A stretch of 64,000 nt of DNA, from the NCBI GenBank assembly GCA_945868435.1, contig CAMBLG010000004.1, positions 62,001 to 126,000 on the forward strand. The letters are read 5' to 3'. Positions 3,594-21,463 of this stretch are shown piece by piece. Each line of letters starts with the position of its first letter. Positions within the stretch are counted from its first letter, which is position 1. The stretch is from an uncultured Lachnospiraceae bacterium (GTDB lineage: Bacteria; Bacillota; Clostridia; Lachnospirales; Lachnospiraceae). The notes below the pieces were generated by a model. That model did not search any database, was not told the DNA's origin, and was given only the letters and a program-made list of their open reading frames with translations. The translations under genes and the position numbers were made by a program.

Positions 3594-3693
3594 ATATATC
3601 CTCCTAGCATAATCTACCTGACATTATAGATATAACTCATTCTATTATACCAAATAAAATCTGCAATAGGAAGAATTATTTGTCGACAACAAG

Positions 3694-3719
3694 AAAAGCC
3701 CGGTTATATCAGGCTTTTT
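3694..3719 (-). terminator. intrinsic terminator of the sulfur/siroheme operon
   Basis: On the minus strand an AAAAGCC...GGCTTTT stem overlaps the stop codon of the CobA-HemD gene and is followed by a T-rich run (TTTTCTTGTT). It is the first terminator-like structure seen downstream of the operon promoter at 17248-17276, so it is the likely 3' end of the 13.5-kb transcript. Confidence 0.7.
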
Positions 3720-5172
3720 CGGCCAATTCAATCATTGCCTCATAAGATGGAGTCTCTGACTGCACGATATGGGTTGCCCCGTATTGCTGCAAAGCCTTTG
3801 TGCAGCTTGGTCCGATCGAGTAGACAGGTACCGACAGATCCGAAAGCCGCGGACACACTCTTCGCACTGCCGAGGCACTGGTAAAAAAAATGCCGTCATA
3901 GTTCTCCACACGGATGGTAAATGAGAGTTCTCTGTTTTTGTACAGGGCGATCTGCCGGTAATCGCATACGGAAGACAAAACCTCCCCCATATCAAAGGCC
4001 GGCTGTTCGGCAGAAATATAAACGCACCGAATGGATTTGCTGTCCTCCCGTAAAATTGTGTCATGCAATTCCCGGGCCAGTGATTCCCCGCTCTGGCCTT
4101 TTGCCACATAATCCGCGCGAATCCCGTAGGAAAAAAGCGCTTCCCTTGTCTTTGTTCCCACCACTGCAAACTTTGCGCCGGCAGCACTCCTTATATCAAG
4201 ATACTTTTCCGTTAGGCAGTGAACAAATGCATGCACACCATGCTTGCTGGTAAAAACAAGCCAATCCGTCCCCTCCAGAATCGCTCGAACTTCCTCGGAA
4301 GATGCATTCCACCGCAACTGCTCGATCTGTCCCACGGGGACTGCCGTAACCTCAGCGCCCTTCTCCGACAACTGTTTTGCCAGCGCATGATCTCCGACAT
4401 AGGGAACAAGATAGCGTTTGCCAAATAACGGCGCTTTCTCATGAAAATTCAACTGTTCTGACAGACTCACCACGGTCCCCACCACAATAATCGCAGGAGA
4501 TGTGACCCCTGCCTTTTCCACTTTGTCCGCAATATCGGCCAGGGTGCCGCGAACCGTCCTCTGCTGTGCCGTCGTCCCATGGGAGACCACTGCCACCGGA
4601 GTGTCTTTGTCCCTTCCTGCATCCATAAGCCCCTTTGCGACTTCCTCTACGTGGGAAAGCCCCATTAAAAACACACCGGTCTCCTCGGAATCCCCAAACA
4701 GCGTATAGTCAATATTCGTGGGCTCATCCTTTCTGGAGTGGGCCGTGATCACATGAAACCCCTTTGCCATTCCTCTGTGGGTAATGGGAATCCCGGCACT
4801 GGCCAACGCCGCCACAGAAGAACTAACCCCCGGCACCTCGTCTACCTCAATCCCCCGCTCCTGCAGGTATATTGCTTCCTCTCCACCACGGCCGAACACG
4901 TAAGGGTCTCCGCCCTTCAATCGAACCGTCAGCGCGCATTCCTCCGCCTTGCGGTAGAGAAGCTCATTGATATCATCCTGTTTCATGACATGCTTATGAT
5001 TTTCTTTTCCCACATAGATGCATTCACATCCCGGCTTTGCCATGGCCAGAAGTTCAGGCGAAAGAAGCCGATCATATACAATACAATCGGCTTTCTCCAC
5101 GCATTCTTTTCCTTTGATTGTAAGCAGACCGATATCCCCCGGTCCTGCTCCGACTAATACTACTTTTCCCAT
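3709..5172 (-). CDS. uroporphyrinogen-III C-methyltransferase / uroporphyrinogen-III synthase fusion (CobA-HemD)
   Basis: A 487-residue two-domain enzyme. Residues 1 to about 240 are an SAM-dependent uroporphyrinogen-III methyltransferase (GAGPGD at 8-13, then a VRLKGGDPYVFGRGGEE block), making precorrin-2. About 245-487 match uroporphyrinogen-III synthase, which cyclises hydroxymethylbilane. The fusion is well known in clostridia. With hemC and the Met8-like gene directly upstream it gives porphobilinogen to siroheme in three polypeptides, and the siroheme would serve the sulfite reductase of the same operon. It starts inside the end of hemC (13-base overlap), suggesting translational coupling. 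It is the last gene of the operon; its stop lies in the terminator hairpin. Confidence 0.96.
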   Translation of the reverse strand: MGKVVLVGAGPGDIGLLTIKGKECVEKADCIVYDRLLSPELLAMAKPGCECIYVGKENHKHVMKQDDINELLYRKAEECALTVRLKGGDPYVFGRGGEEAIYLQERGIEVDEVPGVSSSVAALASAGIPITHRGMAKGFHVITAHSRKDEPTNIDYTLFGDSEETGVFLMGLSHVEEVAKGLMDAGRDKDTPVAVVSHGTTAQQRTVRGTLADIADKVEKAGVTSPAIIVVGTVVSLSEQLNFHEKAPLFGKRYLVPYVGDHALAKQLSEKGAEVTAVPVGQIEQLRWNASSEEVRAILEGTDWLVFTSKHGVHAFVHCLTEKYLDIRSAAGAKFAVVGTKTREALFSYGIRADYVAKGQSGESLARELHDTILREDSKSIRCVYISAEQPAFDMGEVLSSVCDYRQIALYKNRELSFTIRVENYDGIFFTSASAVRRVCPRLSDLSVPVYSIGPSCTKALQQYGATHIVQSETPSYEAMIELAEKA

Positions 5173-6065
5173 AATAATTTCTGTCTCACAATATGCACTG
5201 CCTTGTTCACCATATGCTCCACTTCCGTATCCACGCCACTCACCTGCACCCGGGCCAGTTGTGCTCCGGTCTCATCTCCGAACAAGGCACGCAGCGTATA
5301 CGTTCCGTCGCTGTTGTCACTCAGGAACGCCCCCACCGGCAGATGACAATCTCCACCGATTTGTTTCAGGAAACCGCGCTCTGCCCGTACTGCAAGCTCC
5401 GTCTTCGCATCGGACAGCCGATTGAGCTTGTCCAAAAGCTCCCGGTTATCCGCCTTCACCTCCAACGCCAGTACACCCTGTGCCGGTGCCGGAATTACCT
5501 GTTCCGGCTCCAGGTACTCCGTAATCCGGGCCTCAAGCCCAAGTCTCTTTAGTCCTGCTGCCGCCAGAACAATGCCGTCCAGCTGTGCCGATTCCTGTAA
5601 TTTACGGATGCGGGTGTCAATATTCCCTCGGATACCAACAATCTCAAGGTCCGGGCGAAGATGCAAAAGCTGATACGCTCTGCGCTTGCTCCCGGTGCCG
5701 ATCACCGCATTCCTCTTAAGCTCCATCAGTGATCCCGCTTCCTTCAAAATCAGCACGTCTCTGGCATCCTCTCTGCTCCACGCCTTGGAGAAGGTCAGTC
5801 CCTCCGCCGCATCCTCCGGCATATCCTTCATGGAATGCACCGCCAGCTGAATCTCATTCTGTAAAAGCTGCGCTTCAATCTCCTCAACAAAAATTCCCTT
5901 GGTCCCCATCTGGTCCAAGGAAATATTCTGATTTCTGTCCCCTTTTGTCTGAATAATTACGACCTCGAAGGAGTCCTTCGGATATTCCTCCTTCAGTCGG
6001 TCAATTACGAGATTCGTCTGTGCAAGTGCCAGCTTGGAACCTCTTGTTCCCACACGATAGTGCAA
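5160..6065 (-). CDS. hemC: porphobilinogen deaminase (hydroxymethylbilane synthase)
   Basis: Polymerises four porphobilinogens to hydroxymethylbilane in the cytoplasm. It has 301 residues, normal for HemC. The N-terminal signature GTRGSKLALAQTNLV is complete, and the cofactor-attachment cysteine lies in GGDCHLPVGAF near residue 240. It sits 2 bp after the Met8-like gene and overlaps the CobA-HemD gene. Genes for making porphobilinogen are not in this window, so the substrate must come from elsewhere. Its placement in a sulfur operon suggests dedicated siroheme rather than general heme production, which is an inference from context. Confidence 0.97.
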   Translation of the reverse strand: MHYRVGTRGSKLALAQTNLVIDRLKEEYPKDSFEVVIIQTKGDRNQNISLDQMGTKGIFVEEIEAQLLQNEIQLAVHSMKDMPEDAAEGLTFSKAWSREDARDVLILKEAGSLMELKRNAVIGTGSKRRAYQLLHLRPDLEIVGIRGNIDTRIRKLQESAQLDGIVLAAAGLKRLGLEARITEYLEPEQVIPAPAQGVLALEVKADNRELLDKLNRLSDAKTELAVRAERGFLKQIGGDCHLPVGAFLSDNSDGTYTLRALFGDETGAQLARVQVSGVDTEVEHMVNKAVHIVRQKLLWEK

Positions 6066-6067
6066 CG

Positions 6068-6697
6068 TTATTCTCCTTCCAGAATCGCTTTGATTTCATC
6101 CTCACCGGGGATTCTTCCGGAATCCAGTGTCATCTGCAGAATTCTCTGATAGGCATACTTCCGCTCTTCCACCGTCCTGTATGCCGCCTGAATTTGTGGC
6201 CGCCACTCCCCCATGTACTCATTCAATTCCGCAAGAAGCGGAGTAAGGATATCTCTTTCCTGTTCCTTTAGGTACTGTGCAATCACAGGACTGTTGCCGG
6301 AGCTGGAAAAAGCGGCAACCAGATTCCTCTCCCGCACATAAGCCGGAAAAATAAAGGAACAGTCCTCCTTCTGGTCCACCGCATTGACCAGAATTCCCCT
6401 GTCCTTACAATACTCCGCAATCCTATGGTTCAACTGCACATCATCCGTAGCTGCAATCACGAGGGCTTTGCCGTCACAATCCGCAGGTTCATAACTTTTG
6501 CAGATCAAATCCAGTCTCCCGCTCTCCTGCGCCTCCGACAGCCGAAGCACGTCTTCACAGACCTGCTCTGCGACGCAAACTACCTTCGCCTCAAAATCCA
6601 ACAGAGCGCGTATTTTGCGATACGCTACAGATCCGCCTCCGACCACAAGACAAATCCGGTCCTTAATCTCATAGAAAATCGGAATATACGCCATCAC
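6068..6697 (-). CDS. precorrin-2 dehydrogenase / sirohydrochlorin ferrochelatase (Met8/CysG-N type)
   Basis: A 209-residue Met8-like protein. An N-terminal NAD-binding Rossmann fold is visible (CLVVGGGSVAYRKIRALL near residues 15-32), followed by the dimerisation and C-terminal region. The family oxidises precorrin-2 with NAD+ to sirohydrochlorin and, in Met8p, inserts iron to give siroheme. The length fits the stand-alone form without the methyltransferase domain of CysG; that domain is provided by the CobA-HemD fusion two genes downstream. The start ATGA overlaps the end of bioY by 4 bases, a coupling arrangement. Whether it performs both reactions or only the dehydrogenation cannot be told from sequence. 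Confidence 0.93.
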   Translation of the reverse strand: MMAYIPIFYEIKDRICLVVGGGSVAYRKIRALLDFEAKVVCVAEQVCEDVLRLSEAQESGRLDLICKSYEPADCDGKALVIAATDDVQLNHRIAEYCKDRGILVNAVDQKEDCSFIFPAYVRERNLVAAFSSSGNSPVIAQYLKEQERDILTPLLAELNEYMGEWRPQIQAAYRTVEERKYAYQRILQMTLDSGRIPGEDEIKAILEGE

Positions 6698-7272
6698 GCC
6701 ACCAGCTTTGAAGTGGAAATGTACTTAAACACTGCCCGGATTTTCTTAGCCATCAGGGTTGCGGCAACCACCAGCAGGGCATCCGGCAAAATGGTGATCA
6801 GACAATAATCCACCACTACCGCTCCGAGGGAAACCGGTGTGTAGTTCACAAAATTATTGATGAAATAGAAGTACAATACTCCGAATCCATAATATATCAC
6901 AAGTCCCACAATCCCGGCAATGCCATACTGATAGGATTTATTGGCCCTCATCCGCTCCGTAATCCATCCGATGGCAAACGCCGCAAACAAAAAGCCCAGA
7001 AGGAAACCGAAGGTAGGGCGCAGTATATATGCCGGACCGCCTCCGGATGCGAACACCGGAACTCCCATCAACCCGATCAAAAGATATACGCCTATGCTGA
7101 CGGTAGCGCGTTTTGCCCCCAGCAGGAAGCCTGCCAGCAGCACAAACAGCCATTGCAGGGTAAAATGCATGGTGTATATTGGCAATGGTATGTCAATTTT
7201 TATAAAGGCACCAACCGCGATCAATGCCGCGAACAGCGCACAGGTCGTAAGTTCTTTTGTTTTCAGTTCCAT
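6694..7272 (-). CDS. bioY: BioY-family ECF transporter S component
   Basis: A 192-residue, very hydrophobic protein with about six membrane segments. It has the BioY-type stretch GLMGVPVFASGGGPAYILRP followed by TFGFLLGF; textbook BioY has a GPTGGYLLGF-like sequence there, so this is a somewhat divergent member. BioY is the substrate-binding subunit that imports biotin, alone or with the EcfAT energising module. No ECF ATPase genes lie beside it. It is wedged between the JAMM protease (1-base overlap) and the siroheme genes in the sulfur operon, which is odd: either biotin, itself a sulfur compound, is co-regulated, or the protein carries another sulfur metabolite. Only the family assignment is firm. 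Confidence 0.88.
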   Translation of the reverse strand: MELKTKELTTCALFAALIAVGAFIKIDIPLPIYTMHFTLQWLFVLLAGFLLGAKRATVSIGVYLLIGLMGVPVFASGGGPAYILRPTFGFLLGFLFAAFAIGWITERMRANKSYQYGIAGIVGLVIYYGFGVLYFYFINNFVNYTPVSLGAVVVDYCLITILPDALLVVAATLMAKKIRAVFKYISTSKLVA

Positions 7273-7703
7273 TAAAAATAATACTCCTTTGAATAGATCC
7301 GAAGATCCTCTTTCTCCACCTCATTGTTCTCAATGTGGAAGGAATTTAGAACGGGGTTCTCCGCCATCAGTGATAAGATCATGTAACTGGCCTTTGGATC
7401 GTATGCGAGTTTCTTGTCTTCCTCCGACGGACGGGACGGAGACTCCGGATGTGAATGCCAGTTGCCCAGCTGCACATATCCGTTGGCCCGCATATCCTTG
7501 ACTGCGGCAAGCTGCTCCTTCGGATCAATGGTAAAGTGATCCGCTGCGTGATCCGTGTTGGTGAGGTAGTACACTTTCAGAACTTCCTTCCCATCCGCAT
7601 CCTGCTTTCCTGCCAACAATCCGCAGGCTTCATTGGGAAGTTCGCTCTTTGCATATCTGACCATCTCGTCATAACATTCATACGATAATCTAATTATATT
7701 CAT
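7272..7703 (-). CDS. JAMM/MPN metalloprotease, HcyD-like
   Basis: A 143-residue Mov34/MPN/PAD-1 protein. The full JAMM zinc site is present: Glu25, then His83-x-His85-x7-Ser93-x2-Asp96. Bacterial members of this size process ThiS-like sulfur carriers: Mec in Mycobacterium releases cysteine from CysO, and HcyD in Wolinella trims the carrier C-terminus and later frees homocysteine from it. Here the neighbours are the carrier, its ThiF-like activator and, upstream, MetY, so the HcyD role is the best fit. It overlaps the ThiF gene by one base and bioY by one base. Expected action: remove the extra residue or residues after the Gly-Gly of the carrier and cleave the carrier-homocysteine bond. Confidence 0.92.
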   Translation of the reverse strand: MNIIRLSYECYDEMVRYAKSELPNEACGLLAGKQDADGKEVLKVYYLTNTDHAADHFTIDPKEQLAAVKDMRANGYVQLGNWHSHPESPSRPSEEDKKLAYDPKASYMILSLMAENPVLNSFHIENNEVEKEDLRIYSKEYYF

Positions 7704-8512
7704 TAATGTTTATCCTCGCAAGCTATTTGCTCATAATCGATTGGATTTAATATTGTCGGGTGGTCTCCGCAGACTGCACAGTTGTGTGTATCCTTCGGAA
7801 GCTTGATCTTATGAAACTCCATCGTAAGAGCGTCATAAGTAAGCAGATATCCGGTCAGAAGATCGCCCACACCGATGATATACTTGATTGCCTCCATTGC
7901 CTGAAGAGAACCGATGACACCGCCCATAGCGCCAATTACGCCCGCCTGCTTACAGGTCGGAACCGCATCCTTTGGTGGTGGATTCTTAAATACGCAGCGG
8001 TAGCATGGTCCCTCTCCCGGAACATAGGTCATGAGCTGCCCTTTAAAACGGATGATTCCGGCGTGGGAAAATGGCTTCTTCTCCAATACACAGGCATCGT
8101 TGATCAGAAACTTTGCCGGGAAATTGTCTGTTCCGTCAATGATAAAGTCATATTCTCTGACCAGCTCCCGAATGTTGGTGGAATCCACAAACATCCGATA
8201 GGTGTTGACCGTGACATCCGGATTCATGGCGTTCATGGTTTCCTTAGCGGATTTTACTTTTGCCTTGCCGATATCCGCAGTTCCGTGAATGATCTGTCTC
8301 TGTAGATTGGACAAATCAACCTCGTCCGCATCCACGATTCCGATGGTTCCGACTCCTGCTGCCGCCAGATACATCGCTGCCGGTGCGCCCAGCCCTCCGG
8401 CTCCGATGATCAGCACCTTTGCGTTCAAAAGCTTTTTCTGTCCCTTAGCTCCAACCTCTTTTAAGATAATATGTCTGGAATAACGCTCAATCTGTTCATC
8501 TGTCAATGCCAT
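7703..8512 (-). CDS. ThiF/MoeB-family adenylyltransferase, HcyF-like
   Basis: E1-like enzyme of 269 residues that adenylates the C-terminal glycine of a ubiquitin-fold sulfur carrier. The nucleotide-binding motif GAGGLGAP is at about 37-44. A structural zinc site is formed by CYRC and CAVC pairs, and a CKQAGV segment carries the conserved cysteine loop of MoeB/ThiF proteins. It is contiguous (one-base overlaps) with the carrier gene upstream and the JAMM protease downstream. With MetY and sulfite reductase in the same operon, it probably makes carrier-AMP that sulfide or a persulfide converts to a thiocarboxylate. Thiazole or molybdopterin synthesis is less likely because no thi or moa genes are near. 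Confidence 0.94.
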   Translation of the reverse strand: MALTDEQIERYSRHIILKEVGAKGQKKLLNAKVLIIGAGGLGAPAAMYLAAAGVGTIGIVDADEVDLSNLQRQIIHGTADIGKAKVKSAKETMNAMNPDVTVNTYRMFVDSTNIRELVREYDFIIDGTDNFPAKFLINDACVLEKKPFSHAGIIRFKGQLMTYVPGEGPCYRCVFKNPPPKDAVPTCKQAGVIGAMGGVIGSLQAMEAIKYIIGVGDLLTGYLLTYDALTMEFHKIKLPKDTHNCAVCGDHPTILNPIDYEQIACEDKH

Positions 8513-8718
8513 TAGCAGCCACCTCCCATGAAATACAAAAACTCTACCACATCGCCGTCCTTTAACACCGTAGACTCCTTCTTCTCTGTCTCCACGAACT
8601 CCTCGTTAATGGAAACCGTAACATACTCCGGCATATCCACATTCTCTGCCGCAATCAGCTCCGGCAATGTAAGCCCATCCTTATATTCCTTCCTCTCTCC
8701 TGCAACCGTTATAAACAT
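8512..8718 (-). CDS. ThiS/MoaD-like sulfur carrier, HcyS-like
   Basis: A 68-residue ubiquitin-fold protein of the ThiS family. It ends in FMGGGC: the usual terminal Gly-Gly is followed by extra residues, so the active carboxylate is not exposed in the primary product. Wolinella HcyS likewise carries an extra C-terminal residue (alanine) removed by the JAMM enzyme HcyD. A JAMM protease and a ThiF-like activator directly follow here, which supports a pro-protein needing trimming. The mature thiocarboxylate would pass sulfur to O-acetylhomoserine on MetY. The terminal cysteine is unusual; it could be simply removed, or reflect a CysO-like link to cysteine. The start has a GGA-rich site 8 bases upstream. 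Confidence 0.93.
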   Translation of the reverse strand: MFITVAGERKEYKDGLTLPELIAAENVDMPEYVTVSINEEFVETEKKESTVLKDGDVVEFLYFMGGGC

Positions 8719-8739
8719 TCCCTTATCCTCCTAAATCTC

Positions 8740-9057
8740 TTATAGATTTTTTTCTACCCAGGCAGTAAGCTCTGCGGGCTTCACAGCCCCGACACTCCGG
8801 TCCTTCACCACGCCGTCCTTTACAAAAAGCAGGGTGGGGTTGGCGGTCACATCATACTCCTCTGCCAGTTCACCGTCAAAATTGGTATTTACCTTGTATA
8901 CATACAGCCGATCTTCGTAGTCATCCTCCACATCTCCCAGAAGTGGGGAAAGCTTTTTGCACGCGACACAGGAATCCGAATAGAAATCTACGATTACCGG
9001 CCTGTCGCTCTGCAGCACTTTTTCCTCGAAATCTGCTTTGCCAATCCTTGCTGCCAT
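8740..9057 (-). CDS. thioredoxin-like protein with CVAC active site
   Basis: A 105-residue single-domain thioredoxin. The redox pair is Cys30-Val-Ala-Cys33 in FYSDSCVACKK instead of the classical CGPC, and the conserved cis-proline loop is seen in TANPTLLFVKDG. No signal peptide, so it acts in the cytoplasm. It is 3 bp downstream of the TusA-like gene and 21 bp upstream of the carrier gene. It is one of two thioredoxins in the operon; the other flanks the sulfotransferase and the operon has its own reductase. Likely role: supply electrons for a sulfur-oxyanion or sulfur-relay step. Confidence 0.93.
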   Translation of the reverse strand: MAARIGKADFEEKVLQSDRPVIVDFYSDSCVACKKLSPLLGDVEDDYEDRLYVYKVNTNFDGELAEEYDVTANPTLLFVKDGVVKDRSVGAVKPAELTAWVEKNL

Positions 9058-9059
9058 CC

Positions 9060-9305
9060 TTAGTCCTCCACCTTTTTCACGTATAACGTATAGGTTCCGT
9101 CCTCGTTGTCCTCCAGCTTTAAGATCTGGTGTCCTTCTTCCTTGATACTTCTCGGAACATTCTGCACCGGCTCACCGTCGTTCATCCGAATTGCCAGCAC
9201 CTCGCCGTCATCCAGTTCATCCAGCGTCACCTTTGCCTTGACAAAGGTAAGTGGGCAAACCTTATCTGTAATATCCACTGTCTCATCTACTTTAATCTCT
9301 GCCAT
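9060..9305 (-). CDS. TusA/SirA-family sulfur-transfer protein
   Basis: An 81-residue TusA-fold protein. The sulfur-carrying cysteine is Cys17 in the segment KVCPLTFVKAK. The family motif is normally CPxP; here the second proline is replaced by threonine, as in a divergent subgroup. TusA proteins carry persulfide sulfur between donors and acceptors. Directly behind the sulfite reductase gene (27 bp), it may catch sulfide-level sulfur from that enzyme and hand it to the ThiF/ThiS pair, an inference from position. A structural alternative is the YedF-like selenium-associated branch, but no selenium genes are nearby. Confidence 0.87.
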   Translation of the reverse strand: MAEIKVDETVDITDKVCPLTFVKAKVTLDELDDGEVLAIRMNDGEPVQNVPRSIKEEGHQILKLEDNEDGTYTLYVKKVED

Positions 9306-9332
9306 ATTGCACTTCCTTTCTATGCGGGGCTT

Positions 9333-10208
9333 CTAGTTTCCCTCATAAGCGGCCTGAATCCGATTCCGGAATTCATCCTCGCCCACACGCTGTAACGTTG
9401 CGCGGAAACGCTCCCCTGCATTCGCATACTCCTCAAAAAATCCAATGGCCGCATCCGCAACTCTAAAAAGTGTTTCTTTGTCCTTGATGATTGGAAGATT
9501 TTCTTCACCCTTATAAATCTTGTTTCCGAAAGTTCCACCGAAGGATACAATATATCCCGGTTCTCCCTTCCACGCCTCGGTAGGGCAGGACTTCACACAA
9601 CGGGCACAGTTGTTACACTTGGATTCATCCATTGTAATCTTGCCATCCTTGAGCTCGATTGCTCCCTCTCTACAGGCCTTGACACAGACACCGCACTGGA
9701 TGCAGGCGCTTTGATCACATTCCACAACCATTCCACCTTTGACACCAAGATCATTTTCCTCCGCCTTCAGGCAGTTATTCTGACATCCTGTAACGCCAAA
9801 TTTAAATTTATGGGGAAGCTCTCTTCCGAAATACCGCTCGTCGAGCTCCTGAGCCAGTGTATAGGTGTCAATACATCCGCTTGGACAGATTTCTGAGCCC
9901 TGACAGGCTGTGATGGTTCGCACTCTCGGTCCGCACACGCCAGGCTTTACGCCGCCCTTGGCCAATTCTGCCCTTACCTCCTCAATATCGTCAAATCCGA
10001 TAAACGGAATCTCGATGCCCTGACGGGAAGTCATATGTACATAGCCTTTTCCGTATTTGTCTGCGACATCCGCAACGGTTCTGATATTCTCCGCAGTCAG
10101 GTTTCCTCCTACAACTGCAAGACGAAGAGAAAAGTATCCCTTCTGCTTCTGCCTCATAAATCCGCCCTTTTTCAGTGCTGCATAATCGACTGTCTTCTTC
10201 TCTGCCAT
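9333..10208 (-). CDS. siroheme sulfite/nitrite reductase with 2[4Fe-4S] ferredoxin domain
   Basis: A 291-residue reductase. The siroheme-[4Fe-4S] ligands appear as Cys102-x5-Cys108 and Cys142-x3-Cys146. An inserted bacterial ferredoxin domain follows with CIQCGVCVKAC (169-179) and CNNCARCVKSCP (198-209). This is the small, single-subunit type related to AsrC/dSir-like proteins, shorter than plant-type sulfite reductases because the half-repeat is absent. It should reduce sulfite to sulfide with six electrons from ferredoxin. The siroheme genes in the same operon and absence of nitrogen-oxide genes favour sulfite over nitrite. The start has AAGGAG ideally spaced. Confidence 0.92.
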   Translation of the reverse strand: MAEKKTVDYAALKKGGFMRQKQKGYFSLRLAVVGGNLTAENIRTVADVADKYGKGYVHMTSRQGIEIPFIGFDDIEEVRAELAKGGVKPGVCGPRVRTITACQGSEICPSGCIDTYTLAQELDERYFGRELPHKFKFGVTGCQNNCLKAEENDLGVKGGMVVECDQSACIQCGVCVKACREGAIELKDGKITMDESKCNNCARCVKSCPTEAWKGEPGYIVSFGGTFGNKIYKGEENLPIIKDKETLFRVADAAIGFFEEYANAGERFRATLQRVGEDEFRNRIQAAYEGN

Positions 10209-10234
10209 CCTTGTTCTCCTTTTTTGTGAAGCTT

Positions 10235-11470
10235 TTATTTTGAAATCGTTTCGATTGCCTGTGCAAAGTCTGCTTTCAGGTCCTCAATATCCTCTATTCC
10301 CACACTGATCCGGATCAGATCTTCAAACACGCCTGCGTCCTCCCGCTGCGCTTCCGTACTGTGAAGACTTATAGTGGAAGCCGGGTGGATCACCAGCGTC
10401 CGGACATCACCGATGTTGGACAGCTTGTAGGCAATGGTGAGATTGTTGATGAGAGCAAATGTTTTTTCCCGGCTTCCCACCCGGATGGTGAGAATTCCTC
10501 CGTATCCTTTCTCAAACTGACGCTCTGCAATCTCATGCCAGCGGCTGGATGTAAGTCCCGGATAGTTGACCTGAAAATCCGGATACTGTTCTTCAAAAAA
10601 TGCCGCCAGCTCCACCGCATTGTTACACTGTCTCTCCATACGAAGCCCCAAAGTCTCCAGTCCAATCTGATTCAGAAACGCATTCTGTGGTGAAAGACAC
10701 GCCCCCGTGTTTCTGAAAAAACCATTTCTCAGCTTCGCGATATATGCCATAGGTCCGAATTTGACATAATCCGAAAGCCCCGGGTATTTCTCTTTATCCC
10801 ACTTGAATTTGCCACTGTCCGTCAGCACACCGCTGATGGAATTGCTGCTTCCATTGATGTACTTCGAGGAAGAGTTCACAACGATATCTGCGCCATGCTT
10901 CAGTGGCTGATACAGATATGCCGTTGCCGTGGTGTTGTCTATCACCAGCGGAACACCATGGGCATGGGCTACTTCTGCCAGCTTCTCCACATCTGTCACA
11001 TCCAGACAGGGATTGCCGATGGTCTCAGCGAATACGACTCTGGTATGGTCATTAAATGCCGCTTCTATCTGATTCCAATCGTTATTTGTCACATAATTTG
11101 TTTTAATTCCGAAAGCCTTAAGATCCTGGAACAGATCAATGGTTCCTCCATACAAGCTGGCACTGGAGATAATTTCATCTCCGCTCTGCAGAATGTTCAT
11201 AAGCGCATTAAAAAGCGCTGCCATCCCGGATGCGCAGGCCACACTGGCCATACCTCCCTCCAGCTTTGTTATCCGGTTCTCAAAGCTTGTAATTGTCGGA
11301 TTGCCAACCCTTGTGTAACAGTAACCGGGAGCCTTGTTCTCAAATATCTTTTCAAGCCCCTCCGCAGTCTCCTGCTCAAAGGCACTGGATTGGTAAATTG
11401 GCGGCAGGGTCGCCCCGTGTCGTTCCTTTCGATCAATACCTGCATGGAGCAGGCTTGTATTAAACTCCAT
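10235..11470 (-). CDS. metY: O-acetylhomoserine sulfhydrylase (MetY type)
   Basis: PLP enzyme of the Cys/Met metabolism gamma family, 411 residues from the ATG at 11470, which has GGAG 9 bases upstream; a TTG 15 bases earlier is less likely. The N-terminus STLLHAG-like segment, the TRVGNPT block and the pyridoxal lysine in SSSKYINGSS are all seen. Length and sequence fit MetY rather than MetB/MetC. It replaces the acetyl group of O-acetylhomoserine with sulfur, giving homocysteine; in the Wolinella Hcy pathway the donor is the carrier thiocarboxylate. It overlaps the preceding reductase gene by 11 bases. Sulfide itself may be an alternative substrate. Confidence 0.94.
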   Translation of the reverse strand: MEFNTSLLHAGIDRKERHGATLPPIYQSSAFEQETAEGLEKIFENKAPGYCYTRVGNPTITSFENRITKLEGGMASVACASGMAALFNALMNILQSGDEIISSASLYGGTIDLFQDLKAFGIKTNYVTNNDWNQIEAAFNDHTRVVFAETIGNPCLDVTDVEKLAEVAHAHGVPLVIDNTTATAYLYQPLKHGADIVVNSSSKYINGSSNSISGVLTDSGKFKWDKEKYPGLSDYVKFGPMAYIAKLRNGFFRNTGACLSPQNAFLNQIGLETLGLRMERQCNNAVELAAFFEEQYPDFQVNYPGLTSSRWHEIAERQFEKGYGGILTIRVGSREKTFALINNLTIAYKLSNIGDVRTLVIHPASTISLHSTEAQREDAGVFEDLIRISVGIEDIEDLKADFAQAIETISK

Positions 11471-12377
11471 CTCCAATTGCTCCAATCTTTATATACTCCG
11501 CTACGGAAGTGATGGCATTGGCTCCGTCTGAGACCGCTGTGACGACCTGTCGTAAGGTCTTCGTTCTCACATCTCCCGCCACGAAAAAGCCTTCCTGCGA
11601 GGTTCTTCCGTCCTCATTCGCCACCACATAGCCGCTGTCATCCAGCGCCACAATGCCCCGCAGCAACTCGGTCTGCGGCTTGGATCCATATGCCACAAAC
11701 ACACCATTCAATTCAATACTTGTTCCGCTGTTCAGCCGGACTGCCGTAAGCTTCTCGCCGCCGACAAATTCTTTGACGGTCTCCCCGAGAACAAACTCAA
11801 TATTCGCTTTCTTTCTCGCCTGCTCTACACACTGTGCCGCACCTCTGAATTCCGTTCTTCTGTGAATCAGATATACCTTTTCACACAGGTCGGATAGATA
11901 GAGGGCCTCATCCACCGCCGTATCTCCTCCGCCTAAGACAGCTACCGTCTTTCCCTTGTAAAACGCACCGTCACAGATTGCACAGTAGGAAACGCCTTTT
12001 CCAATATAGCGGTCCTCACCGGGAACGTCCGCCTTTCTCGGCTGTGCTCCCGCCGCATAGATAACGGTCCGCGCCTCCTTACTGCTGCCGTCCTCAAAGG
12101 CAAGCTTCCATCCACCCGGCTGCTTTTCAATGGCGACTACCTCGTGTTCGATAAAGTCTACCCCGAAATCTACCGCATGGTTCCGGAACTGCTCCCCGAG
12201 ATCATATCCGTTGATCCCCGGAAGACCAAGGTAATTGTCAACGCAACTGCTCTCGGCAATCTGTCCGGTTCCCTCATATTCTTTTTCCACCACTGCAATA
12301 TTCAGATTGGCTCTTTTTCCATATATGGCGGCCGCAAGACCGGCAGGTCCGCTTCCTATGATGATTGCGTCAAGCAT
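11460..12377 (-). CDS. thioredoxin reductase (TrxB type)
   Basis: FAD/NADPH disulfide reductase, 305 residues. FAD site GSGPAGLAAAIYG at 8-20, redox pair Cys132-Ala-Ile-Cys135, NADPH site GGGDTA at 149-154, and the C-terminal FAD segment FVAGDVRTKTLRQV. Domain order and length are those of low-molecular-weight TrxB. It lies between the sulfotransferase (15 bp) and metY (overlap) and most likely recycles the two unusual thioredoxins of the operon. A housekeeping trxB is probably elsewhere in the genome. Confidence 0.95.
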   Translation of the reverse strand: MLDAIIIGSGPAGLAAAIYGKRANLNIAVVEKEYEGTGQIAESSCVDNYLGLPGINGYDLGEQFRNHAVDFGVDFIEHEVVAIEKQPGGWKLAFEDGSSKEARTVIYAAGAQPRKADVPGEDRYIGKGVSYCAICDGAFYKGKTVAVLGGGDTAVDEALYLSDLCEKVYLIHRRTEFRGAAQCVEQARKKANIEFVLGETVKEFVGGEKLTAVRLNSGTSIELNGVFVAYGSKPQTELLRGIVALDDSGYVVANEDGRTSQEGFFVAGDVRTKTLRQVVTAVSDGANAITSVAEYIKIGAIGDGV

Positions 12378-12392
12378 ATTCTATCTTCCTTC

Positions 12393-13880
12393 TTATAAAT
12401 CTTTCTTCTTAACAGAGGCAACACAGAAGTCCACCTTCTCGTCTGCATCCTCCTCATCCTCACCCATTCCGGTAATTGCTCTCGCGTTCGGGTCCACACC
12501 GGCTACAACGGTAAACTTTCCGGTTCCTTCACCCACCGATGCTCCCGGCACACGGAAGGTCTGTACATCCACCGGTTCAATGGATACCTCTTCCCCGTGG
12601 ACAGCCTGCGGAACCCACTCATATGGCACGCGATATGCACGGTATACCATGTTCATGGAAAATTTCCCGGCTATGGTCTGGAAGTACGGATTAATGTATT
12701 CCCATACAATCTCATGCTCCGGTGTCACCTCAATGATTCTTCCGTCAGAGCCCTCCGTGATCAGCGTATTGCCGTTTGGAAGTCTCTGGGCTGCACTGAT
12801 ATAGGAGCTGTAGAACTTCGAAGCATCTGTGAACAGGAAGCTTCCGGCCTCCACCGGGGTGTACTGCCAGATGATCTCCAACGTGATCGGATCAAATTCC
12901 AGTACTCTGGAGTAATCTCTGTGAGCGTTATTGTTACCGGTCACAGAAGATGGGTTCGGTGAACCGTATCCCCCTTCTCCACCATTGTCAAACACAAGCA
13001 GGTTGCCCTCACCCGGCAATCCCTTCGGGATCATATGGAAATGATGCTGACCAATGATCCAGCCCAATTTCCGAAGTTCCTTCGTCTTGGAGAAATCCGG
13101 TCCGATCTGCCATACGACCTCACCGGTTTTTTTACTGATAATCGCTAGAATGTTAGCATTTCTGGCATCAAAAATCAAGTTACCCGGATGGAATCTCTCA
13201 TCTCCTGCGTCGTACCACTTATTTTCTCCGAGAACAGAGACACAGTTGATGTGCATCCAGTCTCCGCCCGCTTCTTCGTGCAGTCCCGGATTTCTGGCAA
13301 GGGTATTCTTTGCTGCCTCATCGAAATCAAACTCCTCAAAATGATCCGATGCTCGCCAACTCCAAAGGATATTGCCCTCCCAGTCTACCTCAATGATCTT
13401 GTCATCAATCAGTCTCTTGTCTGAGATATCGTGATTGTAGACATTCTCGTGGGTGAGGATAATGGTGTTGCCGCTGTCCGTCTTCGGCTCGCCGCCGGGA
13501 TAATAGTAACCGACGGTGTTGCCCTCTCTCTGATAATCATGATGCTGTCTGGCCTGCCAGCTGGGTTCCTTTCCGGGATCCGCCACCAGCTCTGTATGGT
13601 CGAATTTCCACACTACATTTCCATCCCAGTCCACCTGAACCAGATCCAGCTGATCCTGATAGGCGTATTTTCCGGTTCTGGCTCCGGTTGTTCCCATCAC
13701 ATAACCTCCCGGAAGAATTTTATTCGGAAAACCGCCAAGTCCTGCCCAGAGGTTTACCTCATTTCCATTCATATCCACCAGGAGAGCTCCCTTTACGGAT
13801 GGATAAATTGTATAACCATTGTATGCCTTGTCTTTATTATAAATTGTTACCCCTGTGGGGAACACACTCGGATGACCCAT
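12393..13880 (-). CDS. aryl-sulfate sulfotransferase (ASST family), without signal peptide
   Basis: A 495-residue beta-propeller-like protein of the bacterial arylsulfotransferase family. Repeated WDGNVVW, WEGNILWSW and GEVVWQIG blades and His-rich segments (QHHFHMIPKG, NNAHRDYSR, ARQHHDYQRE) support this. ASSTs move a sulfuryl group from a phenolic sulfate ester to an acceptor through a sulfo-histidine, with no PAPS. Enterobacterial AssT is exported; here the N-terminus MGHPSVFPTGV has no signal sequence, so the enzyme should be cytoplasmic. Only two cysteines are visible. A perfect GAAGGAGG precedes the start. A thioredoxin gene is just upstream and a thioredoxin reductase just downstream, suggesting a redox partner. 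Acceptor unknown. Confidence 0.88.
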   Translation of the reverse strand: MGHPSVFPTGVTIYNKDKAYNGYTIYPSVKGALLVDMNGNEVNLWAGLGGFPNKILPGGYVMGTTGARTGKYAYQDQLDLVQVDWDGNVVWKFDHTELVADPGKEPSWQARQHHDYQREGNTVGYYYPGGEPKTDSGNTIILTHENVYNHDISDKRLIDDKIIEVDWEGNILWSWRASDHFEEFDFDEAAKNTLARNPGLHEEAGGDWMHINCVSVLGENKWYDAGDERFHPGNLIFDARNANILAIISKKTGEVVWQIGPDFSKTKELRKLGWIIGQHHFHMIPKGLPGEGNLLVFDNGGEGGYGSPNPSSVTGNNNAHRDYSRVLEFDPITLEIIWQYTPVEAGSFLFTDASKFYSSYISAAQRLPNGNTLITEGSDGRIIEVTPEHEIVWEYINPYFQTIAGKFSMNMVYRAYRVPYEWVPQAVHGEEVSIEPVDVQTFRVPGASVGEGTGKFTVVAGVDPNARAITGMGEDEEDADEKVDFCVASVKKKDL

Positions 13881-13923
13881 GTTTGTTACCTCCTTCTATC
13901 TACGTATTTTAGATTCTGAATAA

Positions 13924-14238
13924 TTACCTGAGTTTTTTAATCTCTTCCTGAATCACCAGCGGATGTACCTCTCCAATCAATCGATTTTTCACCTCTCCGT
14001 CTTTGATAAAGAGGAGCGTCGGCACGGCTGTCACATCAAAGCGCTGCTGAATGACGGTCTCAGTGTCCACATTGCATTTTGCAAAATACGCGGTGTCTTC
14101 CGCCTCCTGGGACAGCTTATCAAGAATTCCTGACAGCTTTTTGCAATGATTGCAATTGGTGGTAAACAGTTCTACAACCACCGGGCGATCCTTTCGGATT
14201 TCCACATCAAAATTATGTATGGTAAGCTCCTGTATCAT
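13924..14238 (-). CDS. thioredoxin-like protein with CNHC active site
   Basis: A 104-residue thioredoxin. The active site is Cys29-Asn-His-Cys32, again not CGPC; a histidine before the second cysteine recalls DsbA-type sites and usually makes the pair more oxidising. The cis-Pro loop is TAVPTLLFIKDG. The start at 14238 was preferred over the longer frame because upstream residues do not match thioredoxins. No signal peptide. It is located between the importer lipoprotein and the sulfotransferase, so it may be the redox partner of the latter. Confidence 0.92.
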   Translation of the reverse strand: MIQELTIHNFDVEIRKDRPVVVELFTTNCNHCKKLSGILDKLSQEAEDTAYFAKCNVDTETVIQQRFDVTAVPTLLFIKDGEVKNRLIGEVHPLVIQEEIKKLR

Positions 14239-14281
14239 ATGGTTTCTCTCTTTCTGTCTATAGTCCTGCAAAAGTGACTTC

Positions 14282-15313
14282 TTATTTCTGAATTGTAACA
14301 TTCTCAGGGAACGCGATATCTACCACATCCGTTACAATAAAGTCGCGTACCTCGTAATCGGTATCAAATTTACCATGTGTATAAGCCCAATTCTCAATCT
14401 GTTCAAGATGAAGAGCGGCCTCCTCGGAAAAACCGGTCTTAATCTGATAGGTCTGCCACTGGAGTTTAAAATCATCTGCCTTAACACCAAGCTTTCCTTC
14501 CAGATATTCTGCAGACTCATCCAGATGTGCATCAATGTACTGTGCACTCTCATAAACAGCCTTCAAATACTCTGCTAACTGCTCCTTATTCTCTGCAATG
14601 AAGCCTTCCTTTGCCAAATAATAAGCTCCCGTCTCTATGCCAAGTTCAGAAGACGATACAACCTGCTGCCAACCATAATCCTCCAAGTATTTCGCATTAG
14701 ATCCCGTTGCTACGATTGCGGAAGCGCCTCCTGATTGCGCAAGAGACAGTGTTGTCTGAGAGGAATCCGAATTGACGATGTTCTGCTTATCTTCGTCAAA
14801 TCCCAGATATTCAATGGCCTGGGATACGTAGTAATCTGACACCGTTCCCGTCTGGGTAATAAAGCCTTCGCTGCCATCCAATGCCTCAAGATTGTCTACA
14901 TATTTCGGTGCGACATACAGTCCACCTGTCAGGGCTCCCGCTCCTGACAGCTCAGAAAATATCTGAAGATCATTCTCCTTCAACGTATTACCCAAGCGAT
15001 TAACTGCTGCATAATCTGCCATCATTCCGATGTCTGCGGTTCCAGTCACAACAGCATCAATTGTATTGATCCCAGCCACAAACTCTGTTGTCTGAAGGTC
15101 AATGCCATGCTCCTCAAAAATCCCCTGCCACAAGCCAATCTCCGTTGCATACTGGTCAAGCTGACCGGTCATTACCGCATCTCTCAATACCACCAGATCT
15201 TTTCCACTATCTGACTTCTGAGAGGCGTTGCCCTGACCGGATTCGCCGCATCCTGCAAGTGCTCCTGCCACAAGTGCTGCTGTCAATACAATGCTGATTA
15301 CTTTCCTTTTCAT
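14282..15313 (-). CDS. SsuA/TauA-like substrate-binding lipoprotein
   Basis: Periplasmic-type binding protein of an ABC importer, 343 residues. A signal peptide ends in the lipobox LAGC with Cys22, so it is anchored outside the membrane. The body fits the NMT1/SsuA class for sulfonates, taurine and related organic anions (a GTVSDYYVSQAIEYLG segment matches the hinge of that class). The ATG at 15313 is chosen because it begins the signal peptide and has GGAG 7 bases before it. With the permease and ATPase upstream it forms a complete importer. The ligand cannot be read from sequence; aryl sulfate esters or sulfonates are suggested by the sulfotransferase downstream. Confidence 0.92.
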   Translation of the reverse strand: MKRKVISIVLTAALVAGALAGCGESGQGNASQKSDSGKDLVVLRDAVMTGQLDQYATEIGLWQGIFEEHGIDLQTTEFVAGINTIDAVVTGTADIGMMADYAAVNRLGNTLKENDLQIFSELSGAGALTGGLYVAPKYVDNLEALDGSEGFITQTGTVSDYYVSQAIEYLGFDEDKQNIVNSDSSQTTLSLAQSGGASAIVATGSNAKYLEDYGWQQVVSSSELGIETGAYYLAKEGFIAENKEQLAEYLKAVYESAQYIDAHLDESAEYLEGKLGVKADDFKLQWQTYQIKTGFSEEAALHLEQIENWAYTHGKFDTDYEVRDFIVTDVVDIAFPENVTIQK

Positions 15314-15345
15314 AATTTTTCTCCTTCTATTTCCTTTTTGTTTTA

Positions 15346-16125
15346 TTATGCTTTCTTCACTCCGAAATGCTTCAGGAATTTCACTCCAATGACCTGAAGA
15401 ACCCGGTCTGCCGCAAATCCAATCAGTGCGAGAGTCACAATTCCCGCAAAGGCCCATGCTGTCCGATAGTACATCTTGGAACTGTTGATCAGGTAACCAA
15501 GACCATCATTTCCCACCAGCATCTCTGCTGCAATCACACAGATGATTCCTGCGCTGAGCCCAAGTCGGATTCCCGTAAAGATTCCGGGCACCGCCGACGG
15601 AACTACTACGGTAAAAAATACTCTTAACCGGCTGGCACCCATACAGGACGCGGCCTCAATCAGCGATTTGTCCGTGGCAACCACTCCCGCAATGGTGTTC
15701 ACCAGAATCGGGAAGAAGGATGCGTACAGAATCAACGCTACCTTTGATTTATCATCCACACCGAACCACATCAGAAACAGTGAGGTCAGTGCAATGGCCG
15801 GGATGAACCGGAACAAGCTCAAGAGCGGTTCGATCAACCACCTGGCCGGTCGGAAGTGCCCGACGATCAATCCGATGGGGACAGCAGTCACAATTGCGAG
15901 TCCCCATCCCTTTGCGACTCGACTTACCGATGCTACGATATCCGCCCAAAGTGTTCCATCCTGAATCAAAACCACCAGACTGTTCCAAGTCTCCACCGGA
16001 CTCGGAAGAAATATCTCATCATACTGTGCAGCTCCAACAGCCCACAGTACAAGGAAAAGAATCCATGAAATAATTCCGCATTTTAAAATTTTCTGAGGCA
16101 GGTTTGTTGCTTTCGTTTCTTCCAT
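15346..16125 (-). CDS. SsuC/TauC-like ABC transporter permease
   Basis: A 259-residue integral membrane permease with about six helices. The cytoplasmic EAA loop is EAASCMGASRLRVFFTVVVP, typical of sulfonate/nitrate/taurine permeases. The start at 16125 (MEETKATNL) follows GGAGG; a longer frame upstream would overlap the ATPase gene and lacks support. It forms the channel of the importer with the ATPase (17 bp upstream) and the binding lipoprotein (32 bp downstream). Confidence 0.93.
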   Translation of the reverse strand: MEETKATNLPQKILKCGIISWILFLVLWAVGAAQYDEIFLPSPVETWNSLVVLIQDGTLWADIVASVSRVAKGWGLAIVTAVPIGLIVGHFRPARWLIEPLLSLFRFIPAIALTSLFLMWFGVDDKSKVALILYASFFPILVNTIAGVVATDKSLIEAASCMGASRLRVFFTVVVPSAVPGIFTGIRLGLSAGIICVIAAEMLVGNDGLGYLINSSKMYYRTAWAFAGIVTLALIGFAADRVLQVIGVKFLKHFGVKKA

Positions 16126-16141
16126 TTCCTTCGCCTCCCTT

Positions 16142-17203
16142 TTAAATGTAATACAGACTCGAATCATCAAGTCCTTTATTGATCAATGTCGTTGTCGTTG
16201 TGTCATCGAATATATACAATTGATTAATGAGCACCTGTACCAGATCTCCGGATTTCAGTGGTCCGTTGACCAGTGGGGAATGTGCCCGAATCTTAATGTC
16301 GTCAATATCCAGAAGTACCTCAAAATAATTTCCCCGGAAAATGCTCTGTTCCACAACTGCATCTTCGTATATGGTGGCATCATGCTTTTTCTTATCCACA
16401 CCCTTGATCTCGACGAATTCCGGTCGAATGATTGCCTTGGTGTCCTTTCCAATGGAATCGAAGCCCTTCAGTCTGTCATAATCCGAGATGATAGAGGATT
16501 TGCCGATAAACTGTGCCACAAACGGTGTCTTGGGATGCAGGTAGATGTCCACCGGATTACCGACCTGTTCGACCCGCCCCTCGTTGGTGATGATGATCTC
16601 ATCCGCCACTTCAATGGCTTCATCCTGATCGTGGGTTACGAAAATGCTTGTAATACCAATCTTATCGATGGTTTCTCTCAACCAGGTTCGAAGCTCCTGC
16701 CTTACCTTGGCATCAATTGCCGCAAACGGCTCGTCCAGAAGCAACAGCTCCGGCTCCGGTGCCAGCGCCCGGGCCAATGCAATTCGCTGCTTCTGTCCAC
16801 CGGACAACTGATCCGGATAACGCTTCTCCAGCCCCGGAAGCCCCACCAACTCCAACAGTTCCTGCACCCGCTTATCGATGTAAGCTTTATCCTTTTTCTG
16901 TATCTTAAGGCCGTAAGCAATGTTGTCATGCACATTCAAATAAGGAAACAATGCATAACTCTGAAATACAAAGCCGATTCCTCTCTGGCTGGATGGAAGA
17001 TTGTTCACACAGGTTCCGTTTATGTATATATCCCCGGAATCCTGACACTCCAGACCGGCAAGCATTCGAAGAATGGTCGTCTTTCCGCTTCCACTGGGTC
17101 CCAGCAGACCGATCAGCTTTCCCTTCTCAATTCCGAAGGACACATCTTTGGATGCCTGATAATCACCGAATGTCTTATTGATGTTCTGCAATTCAATATA
17201 CAT
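16142..17203 (-). CDS. CysA-like ABC transporter ATPase with TOBE domain
   Basis: ATP-hydrolysing subunit, 353 residues. Walker A GPSGSGKT (35-42), signature LSGGQKQR, Walker B LLLLDEPF, and the switch histidine in VTHDQDEA. Beyond residue ~240 a C-terminal regulatory TOBE-like domain is present, as in CysA, whereas SsuB/TauB ATPases usually lack it; the mixture of a CysA-like ATPase with an SsuA/C-type permease is notable. First gene of the 17-gene sulfur operon, 45 bp after a strong promoter. ATG with a purine-rich site (GAGAGGCGAAGG). Confidence 0.94.
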   Translation of the reverse strand: MYIELQNINKTFGDYQASKDVSFGIEKGKLIGLLGPSGSGKTTILRMLAGLECQDSGDIYINGTCVNNLPSSQRGIGFVFQSYALFPYLNVHDNIAYGLKIQKKDKAYIDKRVQELLELVGLPGLEKRYPDQLSGGQKQRIALARALAPEPELLLLDEPFAAIDAKVRQELRTWLRETIDKIGITSIFVTHDQDEAIEVADEIIITNEGRVEQVGNPVDIYLHPKTPFVAQFIGKSSIISDYDRLKGFDSIGKDTKAIIRPEFVEIKGVDKKKHDATIYEDAVVEQSIFRGNYFEVLLDIDDIKIRAHSPLVNGPLKSGDLVQVLINQLYIFDDTTTTTLINKGLDDSSLYYI

Positions 17204-17229
17204 AACCTTCGCCTCTCTTTTCCTACATT

Positions 17230-17248
17230 TCCTACTTGTTTAATAGGA
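17230..17248. promoter_or_regulatory. inverted repeat overlapping the operon start, candidate operator
   Basis: TCCTA-9 bases-TAGGA on both strands lies just downstream of, and touching, the -10 hexamer of the sulfur operon promoter. A repressor bound here would block the start. An Rrf2-family regulator such as CymR, which controls sulfur genes in Firmicutes, is a guess; no regulator gene is adjacent. Confidence 0.35.
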
Positions 17249-17276
17249 TATTAGCATAACGATATTTTCATGTCAA
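17248..17276 (-). promoter_or_regulatory. sigma-A promoter of the sulfur operon
   Basis: On the minus strand TTGACA (17271-17276), a 17-base spacer and TAATAT (17248-17253). It is the only strong promoter seen for the whole block down to 3709 and stands about 45 bases before the ATPase start. Confidence 0.75.
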
Positions 17277-17315
17277 GAATAAATTTGAAATTTTTTCCAT
17301 GGGGGATTTTCTATA

Positions 17316-17361
17316 GAAAAAATACAGCAAAAATCCCCAGCTTTTGCCGGGGATTCTGCTG
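17316..17361 (-). terminator. terminator downstream of amt
   Basis: Stem CAGCA...ATCCCC / GGGGAT...TGCTG (17325-17361) followed on the minus strand by a T-rich run (17316-17323). It separates the nitrogen genes from the sulfur operon promoter. Confidence 0.75.
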
Positions 17362-17418
17362 TTGATGTATACTAAACTAAGGGGATTAGATTCACTAATC
17401 TCTTAAGATTAGTGCATA

Positions 17419-19170: not shown

Positions 19171-19200
19171 AACTATAATCCTCCTAAGTTTTATTTCATA

Positions 19201-19255
19201 TAAAAAGCGGCACTTTCCCAATTTCCACAGCTTCGTGGTTCAAGAAAATGCCGCT
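19201..19255 (-). terminator. hairpin between glnN and amt
   Basis: Long stem (AGCGGCANTTT arms at 19206-19216 and 19245-19255) containing a small inner CCAC/GTGG hairpin, followed on the minus strand by TTTTTA. It ends the glnN message or attenuates read-through into amt, whose ribosome site begins some 15 bases later. Confidence 0.65.
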
Positions 19256-19279
19256 ATTTATCTAGTCATGTTTTCGGGC

Positions 19280-21397: not shown

Positions 21398-21463
21398 TTT
21401 CACAACGTCCTTTCTCTTCAATCAAATCCCCTTGATTGGCTATTTTTCGACACAGACAATTTT

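Follow-up and report, generated by a model that had tools for sequence, protein, structure and literature searches.

A proposed dithiol-dependent organosulfate reductase of the arylsulfate sulfotransferase family in a homocysteine operon of an uncultured Lachnospiraceae bacterium

How could an operon that encodes a sulfotransferase supply its own sulfite reductase with sulfite? The question is raised by a stretch of 64,000 nucleotides from an uncultured Lachnospiraceae bacterium (GenBank assembly GCA_945868435.1, contig CAMBLG010000004.1, positions 62,001 to 126,000; hereafter the window). Here a 495-residue protein resembling arylsulfate sulfotransferases (ASST; 12393..13880 on the minus strand, as are all operon genes below) is encoded together with an ATP-binding cassette (ABC) importer, thioredoxins (Trx), a siroheme sulfite reductase (SiR) and genes for homocysteine formation. 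An initial annotation of this DNA had read the operon as a path from organosulfate sulfur to homocysteine; its homocysteine route stands, while it gave no account of how a sulfuryl transferase gives sulfite. Since sulfur handled by a sulfotransferase stays at the level of sulfate, a sulfite reductase cannot be supplied by the ASST on its own. Based on sequence and gene context, we propose that the window ASST is a dithiol-dependent organosulfate reductase, a sulfotransferase turned reductase.

The window ASST matches PF05935 (87.7 bits, cut-off 24.2); it has no CysH or PAPS_reduct match in Pfam and no NCBIfam match at all. Its relatives are sparse, being present in 4 of 291 genomes of the window's class and 9 of 160 of its family. 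A genome scan yielded 79 distinct ASST loci, the best of 337 confirmed relatives, from records titled Clostridia, Bacilli, Actinobacteria or Deltaproteobacteria or members thereof. With further loci these make up an alignment of 108 rows, which contains the near-copies L090/L017, L107/L061 and L120/L071. Residues were matched to those of E. coli AssT through a profile alignment to clostridial long ASSTs (97.4% probability) and a mixed alignment that includes E. coli AssT; in a PDB set neither phmmer nor a four-row ASST profile retrieved E. coli AssT, and a clostridial long ASST did. On this alignment H114, H210 (codon 13251..13253, computed from the open reading frame (ORF) start), N212, R240 and H279 (codon 13044..13046) correspond to His252, His356, Asn358, Arg374 and His436, and are conserved in 107, 106, 107, 108 and 107 of the 108 rows, respectively. 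His436 is the sulfated residue, the nucleophile, in E. coli AssT, as given with the other active-site roles in the available part of a 2026 review (PMC13426309). By profile, and by its His/Asn/Arg active site, the protein thus belongs with the aryl sulfotransferases that are independent of 3'-phosphoadenosine 5'-phosphosulfate (PAPS), such as E. coli AssT and D. hafniense DhAST, a comparison made on the E. coli sequence, with DhAST set beside it by name only. Differences from E. coli AssT, which that part of the review describes as periplasmic with one disulfide (PMC13426309), lie in the lack of an evident signal peptide, the window ASST being probably cytoplasmic, in a C-terminal extension with a near-invariant cysteine, and in the dithiol-reductase neighbours or fusions found at about half of the subfamily's loci.

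The extension lies beyond the part that the family shares with E. coli AssT; neither E. coli AssT itself nor two Lactobacillales ASSTs have it or its cysteine. Most of the tail is variable, save for some positions close to where it begins, yet 105 of the 108 rows keep Cys486 (codon 12423..12425, located by counting from the ORF start), and this residue is invariant in a 59-row alignment that left out the three exceptions. A single cysteine is present in 36 of the 108 rows, and in all 36 it occupies the Cys486 position.

The window ASST gene sits between those for thioredoxin 1 (Trx1, motif CNHC; 13924..14238, a start inferred within an ORF that opens at 14301) and thioredoxin reductase (TrxB, motif CAIC; 11460..12377; TIGR01292, 324.1 bits, cut-off 343.45). 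The density of such neighbours was counted at 98 loci, in which the zone within 1 kb of ASST comprises 193 kb in all and the zone at 5-10 kb 640 kb. This set began as 102 loci, L022 having already been dropped as a copy of L006, and lost L129, L132, L138 and L139, which have a long ASST only; it includes L090 (a copy of L017) and several loci of one genome, and excludes the window. Within 1 kb there are 19 Trx genes (0.098/kb) versus 7 at 5-10 kb (0.011/kb), and 13 TrxB genes (0.067/kb) versus 6 (0.009/kb). Glutaredoxin-like (Grx-like) genes number 12 versus 2, GcvH genes 8 versus 2 and lipoamide dehydrogenase (LPD) genes 7 versus 0. Of the 98 loci, 52 have either a fusion or a dithiol gene no more than 5 kb away. 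The motif of the closest thioredoxins is CxHC in 16 cases out of 19; the thioredoxins of homocysteine modules carry CVPC, CVAC or similar.

Fusions and substitutions of the partner are also seen. Four ASSTs carry a Pfam-confirmed C-terminal thioredoxin (L008, L092, L093, L094), with TrxB directly upstream in three (L008, L093, L094), and in the fusions of L092-L094 the tail cysteine is still present, 46-52 residues ahead of the CxxC of Trx. The ASSTs of Desulforamulus, Desulfosporosinus and a deltaproteobacterial record (L061, L059, L058) have other neighbours: lipoamide dehydrogenase, a lipoyl H-protein and a Grx-like protein with CTRC or CSRC; LipB- and LipA-like genes, named from sequence reading, are also present at L061, L063 and L074. 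The dithiol link may extend to the long ASSTs (about 620-640 residues), which adjoin Trx and TrxB at L126, L127, L129 and L138, the one at L129 also adjoining LipB- and LipA-like genes. Partner types follow the ASST tree, with several changes. The tree was built with FastTree from 104 rows, leaving out L090, L107, L120 and the short copy of L018; some of its branches are long, those of L008 and L095 included. On it the partner label requires 13 changes across the 90 rows that have a label. If the 14 rows without one are treated as a fifth group, the number is 21, where shuffled labels average 52.2; the ASST-Trx fusions require at least 2 changes.

A reduction mechanism is suggested by three features together: the cysteine of the tail, the fusions of ASST to Trx and the exchange of one dithiol partner for another. 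The importer would bring an organosulfate into the cell, and H279, as its conservation indicates, would accept the SO3 group while the alcohol or phenol leaves. Drawing on gene context, the fusions and the conserved cysteine, we suggest that SO3 would then move to Cys486 to give Cys-S-SO3, that the CxHC thioredoxin would attack this S-sulfonate and free sulfite, and that TrxB would reset the cycle by reducing the thioredoxin disulfide; the importer step is placed on the same grounds. The remaining steps follow known enzymes: SiR would take sulfite to sulfide, the HcyF-type and JAMM proteins would form the thiocarboxylate of the HcyS carrier, and MetY would join its sulfur to O-acylhomoserine.

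Such chemistry has precedents. According to the accessible parts of the sources, adenosine 5'-phosphosulfate (APS) reductase forms a thiosulfonate intermediate that is resolved by thioredoxin, with the Trx domain fused in plants (PMC6827007), and E. coli glutaredoxins free sulfite from S-sulfocysteine (PMC3528435). By analogy, the window ASST may work like a sulfonucleotide reductase without being a CysH member. Like APS/PAPS reductase (CysH, and the plant APR with its C-terminal Trx domain) it would form an enzyme Cys-S-sulfonate, use a separate or fused thioredoxin and release sulfite, but it comes from another sequence family, and its donor would be an organic sulfate ester instead of an ATP-made nucleotide. 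We consider it fairly probable that the operon takes up sulfate esters, converts their sulfuryl group to sulfite without ATP activation, and passes it on as sulfide for loading onto a carrier for homocysteine. For the wider claim, that a widespread class of tail-cysteine ASSTs may use dithiol partners, be it thioredoxin (separate or fused), a glutaredoxin-like or a lipoyl protein, to reduce organic sulfate esters directly to sulfite, we see the balance as tipping slightly in favour.

Several observations weigh against this reading. Characterised aryl sulfotransferases transfer sulfuryl groups to phenols, alcohols, sugars and amines, and in the available text of the review that says so the word "sulfite" is absent (PMC13426309). 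In the same text Thr501 is counted among the active-site residues of E. coli AssT (PMC13426309), and this threonine is not kept: position 361, which corresponds to it in the mixed alignment, is Ile in the window ASST and, over the 108 rows, Ile in 95, Val in 10, Thr in 2 and Gly in 1. Since the long ASSTs also lack Thr there, we do not take it as family-defining. Three rows have no tail cysteine, namely L008, L095 and the second, truncated copy of L018; the L008 protein (L008:9171-10952) is an ASST-Trx fusion that lacks active-site His residues as well. Nor is a tail cysteine unique to the subfamily, as a near-C-terminal cysteine occurs, among other cysteines, in 9 of 9 long ASSTs. Three of the 19 nearest thioredoxins are not CxHC (two CHVC, one CTYC). 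Thioredoxin genes are common farther out as well, with 16 at 2.5-5 kb (0.040/kb), some of them belonging to the homocysteine module, and at L006 a Trx of that module is the sole nearby dithiol gene. The Grx, GcvH and LPD families were picked after their recurrence had been seen, with hidden Markov models built from the same loci. At 46 of the 98 loci there is no dithiol gene within 5 kb, and housekeeping thiols would have to serve. Finally, a close SiR (at least 53% identity, a threshold set after the gap below it had been seen) occurs in 3 of 9 ASST genomes versus 13 of 151 others, with p 0.048, or 0.17 without the window's genome; at the search's own looser threshold, reached in 59 of 160 genomes, the figures are 5 of 9 versus 54 of 151 (p 0.29).

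The window ASST might be an ordinary PAPS-independent sulfotransferase with a small phenol or alcohol acceptor, with Trx and TrxB only keeping cysteines reduced or serving the homocysteine module. Its active site is that of the known enzymes, which, in the accessible part of the review, use small acceptors (PMC13426309), and 46 of the 98 loci have no dithiol gene nearby. We nevertheless regard this as unlikely, for it leaves unexplained why importer, ASST and sulfite reductase share one operon, why the tail cysteine is near-invariant, and why a CxHC thioredoxin class, Trx fusions and lipoyl or Grx alternatives should accompany the enzyme.

The second half of the proposed path, from sulfite onwards, is predicted from the sequence to be a protein-thiocarboxylate route to homocysteine, and this prediction is well supported. 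The operon encodes the set together: a MetY-type O-acylhomoserine sulfhydrylase (10235..11485; TIGR01326, 457.4 bits, cut-off 495.1), an asrC-like SiR with two 4Fe-4S motifs (9333..10208; TIGR02912, 154.2 bits, cut-off 324.1), a ThiS-like, HcyS-like carrier ending in GGGC (8512..8718), a ThiF/MoeB-like, HcyF-like adenylyltransferase (7703..8512) and a JAMM metalloprotease resembling HcyD (7272..7703), the last three named from profile matches. The JAMM motif and the siroheme-SiR motifs are present in the window proteins. In 13 of 13 ThiS copies (the window and 12 loci) the C-terminus is GGG plus one residue, so trimming is needed to expose the glycine, which fits the JAMM gene. The window's genome also has a homoserine acyltransferase for MetY (PF04204, E 1.2e-141) and a cysteine synthase. 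The homocysteine route of the initial annotation is thereby upheld. Its gene names, too, hold in our Pfam and NCBIfam profile searches, by which the gene families of the operon were assigned, with several NCBIfam scores under curated cut-offs.

A closely similar set is reportedly known from Wolinella succinogenes, for which Krishnamoorthy and Begley are said to have described in 2011 a sulfate-fed protein-thiocarboxylate pathway of HcyS, HcyF, HcyD and MetY with sulfite reductase. The likeness lies in the combination of ThiS-like, ThiF-like, JAMM and MetY proteins with a sulfite reductase; the difference would lie in the feed, which in the window operon would be organosulfate through ASST and Trx, not sulfate. 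The Wolinella paper is among those cited in the accessible part of PMC5764234.

The initial annotation further held that an organosulfur feed bypasses sulfate activation. ATP sulfurylase (PF01747) was not found in the window's genome, which is 84% complete and the only one searched for it, and a CysH model gave no match there at E 1e-10; no search of this genome used models of CysN/CysD or APS kinase. However, none of the 160 genomes of the family exceeded the CysH cut-off, so the lack of CysH is ordinary there and a bypass would reflect no special loss; weaker CysH matches occur in 12 of the 160, two of them ASST genomes (G339, G437). For this reason the missing CysH and ATP sulfurylase were set aside as evidence for a bypass. 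The same searches bear on the idea that the ASST is sulfatase-like and frees inorganic sulfate, which would be reduced by another, unfound route. We find this very improbable, given the failure to find PF01747 and CysH, an absence that at 84% completeness is no proof. It does find some agreement in the alkylsulfatase-type genes that lie near ASST at a few loci (5 matches at 1-2.5 kb in the 98-locus set, one with the Pfam domain Alkyl_sulf_dimr at L025).

These alkylsulfatase-type metallohydrolases lie near ASST and an importer at L025 (L025:13990-15951), L031, L036, L037 and L049, and the same five loci share a second common gene family there (cluster 31). Judged from sequence, the alkylsulfatase-type neighbours hint at sulfate esters as the ASST substrate.

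Which compound the importer carries is a related matter. The importer of the window consists of a CysA-like ATPase (16142..17203; TIGR00968, 344.8 bits, above the cut-off of 342.75), a TauC/SsuC/SaoP-like permease (15346..16170) whose NCBIfam matches shown are all below cut-offs, and a substrate-binding protein (14282..15313, start inferred at MKRK). The top NCBIfam score of the permease is to SaoP, though below cut-off. An SsuA/C-type importer had been named initially; that it is an ABC importer holds, and the SsuA match of the binding protein is weak (44.9 bits, cut-off 163.5). Across the 79 loci, ATPase and permease matches both lie within about 10 kb of ASST at 52, some of the matches being 31-45% identical. 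ThiS, ThiF and JAMM genes lie within the same distance at only 11, in several arrangements and more than one orientation, and siroheme-synthesis matches (CysG-N, HemC or CobA-HemD) at 9. In the cultured relative Blautia sp. MSJ-9 (L009) the genes from ATPase to JAMM are ordered as they are in the window. At L091 a NirA/CysI-like siroheme sulfite/nitrite reductase begins 20 nt after ASST.

On these counts, the co-occurrence of ASST with the homocysteine genes that the initial annotation had looked to is borne out by the 11 loci with ThiS-ThiF-JAMM, and is weak as a link between ASST and close SiR. Obligate partnership of ASST and the homocysteine module was considered separately and rejected on the close-SiR comparison, with and without the window's genome. 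The importer might be one for sulfonates, the module receiving its sulfite from C-S cleavage elsewhere and the ASST being a passenger. The permease and binding protein do resemble Tau/Ssu types, below cut-offs, and 13 of the 16 genomes with a close SiR have no ASST. We give this explanation little credence, since Pfam and NCBIfam identified no C-S lyase or monooxygenase in the operon, and importer genes, allowing for the low identity of some matches, accompany ASST far beyond the loci with ThiS-ThiF-JAMM.

Nitrogenase-like H, D and K genes occur at L053 (L053:6374-9965, by family search) and, by clustering, at L055 and L044; at L053 and L055 they lie between the ABC importer and ASST. They perhaps encode another sulfur-scavenging reductase, which may be Mar-like.

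The other operon genes, assigned by profile matches, encode a TusA-like protein (9060..9305), thioredoxin 2 (motif CVAC; 8740..9057), a precorrin-2 dehydrogenase of the CysG N-terminal type (6068..6697), HemC (5160..6065) and a CobA-HemD fusion (3709..5172). Within this sulfur operon sits gene 14, the BioY biotin-uptake component (6694..7272; Pfam, 124.7 bits), which the initial annotation had left unnamed.

As had been described, the operon consists of 17 co-directional minus-strand ORFs with short gaps or overlaps. They occupy 17203 down to 3709, and neighbours are -29 to +43 nt apart when the inferred starts of the binding protein (15313) and Trx1 (14238) are used. The operon genes are likely read as one transcript, judging from this layout and the flanking signals. 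A promoter-like site, TTGACA-17-TAATAT with an extended TG (17276-17248, minus strand), matches at 10 of 12 positions, and a terminator-like hairpin with a 9-bp stem and T-rich tail lies at 3718-3694 (minus strand). The earlier "one strong promoter" and "one clear terminator" are to this extent present and not singular. In the region 2500-19500 four promoter-like sites score 10/12, the operon-front site among them, and two lie inside the operon on the same strand (8879-8851, 7721-7693); the number of promoter-like sites is 29, where 21.4 would be expected. Terminator-like sites total 16 against 13.5 expected by chance and occur internally; of the internal ones on the operon strand the largest has a 7-bp stem (4512-4493). 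Upstream of the front promoter-like site there is a stronger hairpin (17357-17330). With internal promoter-like sites of equal score and a near-chance terminator count, a single transcript is likely at most. An Rfam scan of window positions 1-25000 found no family above threshold. Just upstream, on the same strand, are amtB-type and glutamine-synthetase-type genes (17419-21421), named from ORF reading.

In the open-access literature, covered as titles and abstract openings with subscription papers outside, we found no description of an ASST with thioredoxin, sulfite reductase or use as a sulfur source, and no organosulfate or aryl sulfate reductase of this combination. According to the available part of the 2026 review (PMC13426309), it is not known for most bacterial aryl sulfotransferases which acceptor they use in nature, and little is understood of their roles; our proposal gives an acceptor, a protein thiol, and a product, sulfite. 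If true, the tail-cysteine ASSTs would be a second protein family for the reduction of sulfate-level sulfur, and a second evolutionary solution to the reaction of APS reductase, without ATP activation. In gut Clostridia they would supply assimilation, and in bacteria of the Desulfosporosinus/Desulforamulus type perhaps the respiration of sulfite. Gut bacteria would thereby have an ATP-sparing means of obtaining sulfur from the sulfate esters of host and diet, which would affect aryl-sulfate metabolites and the formation of sulfide.

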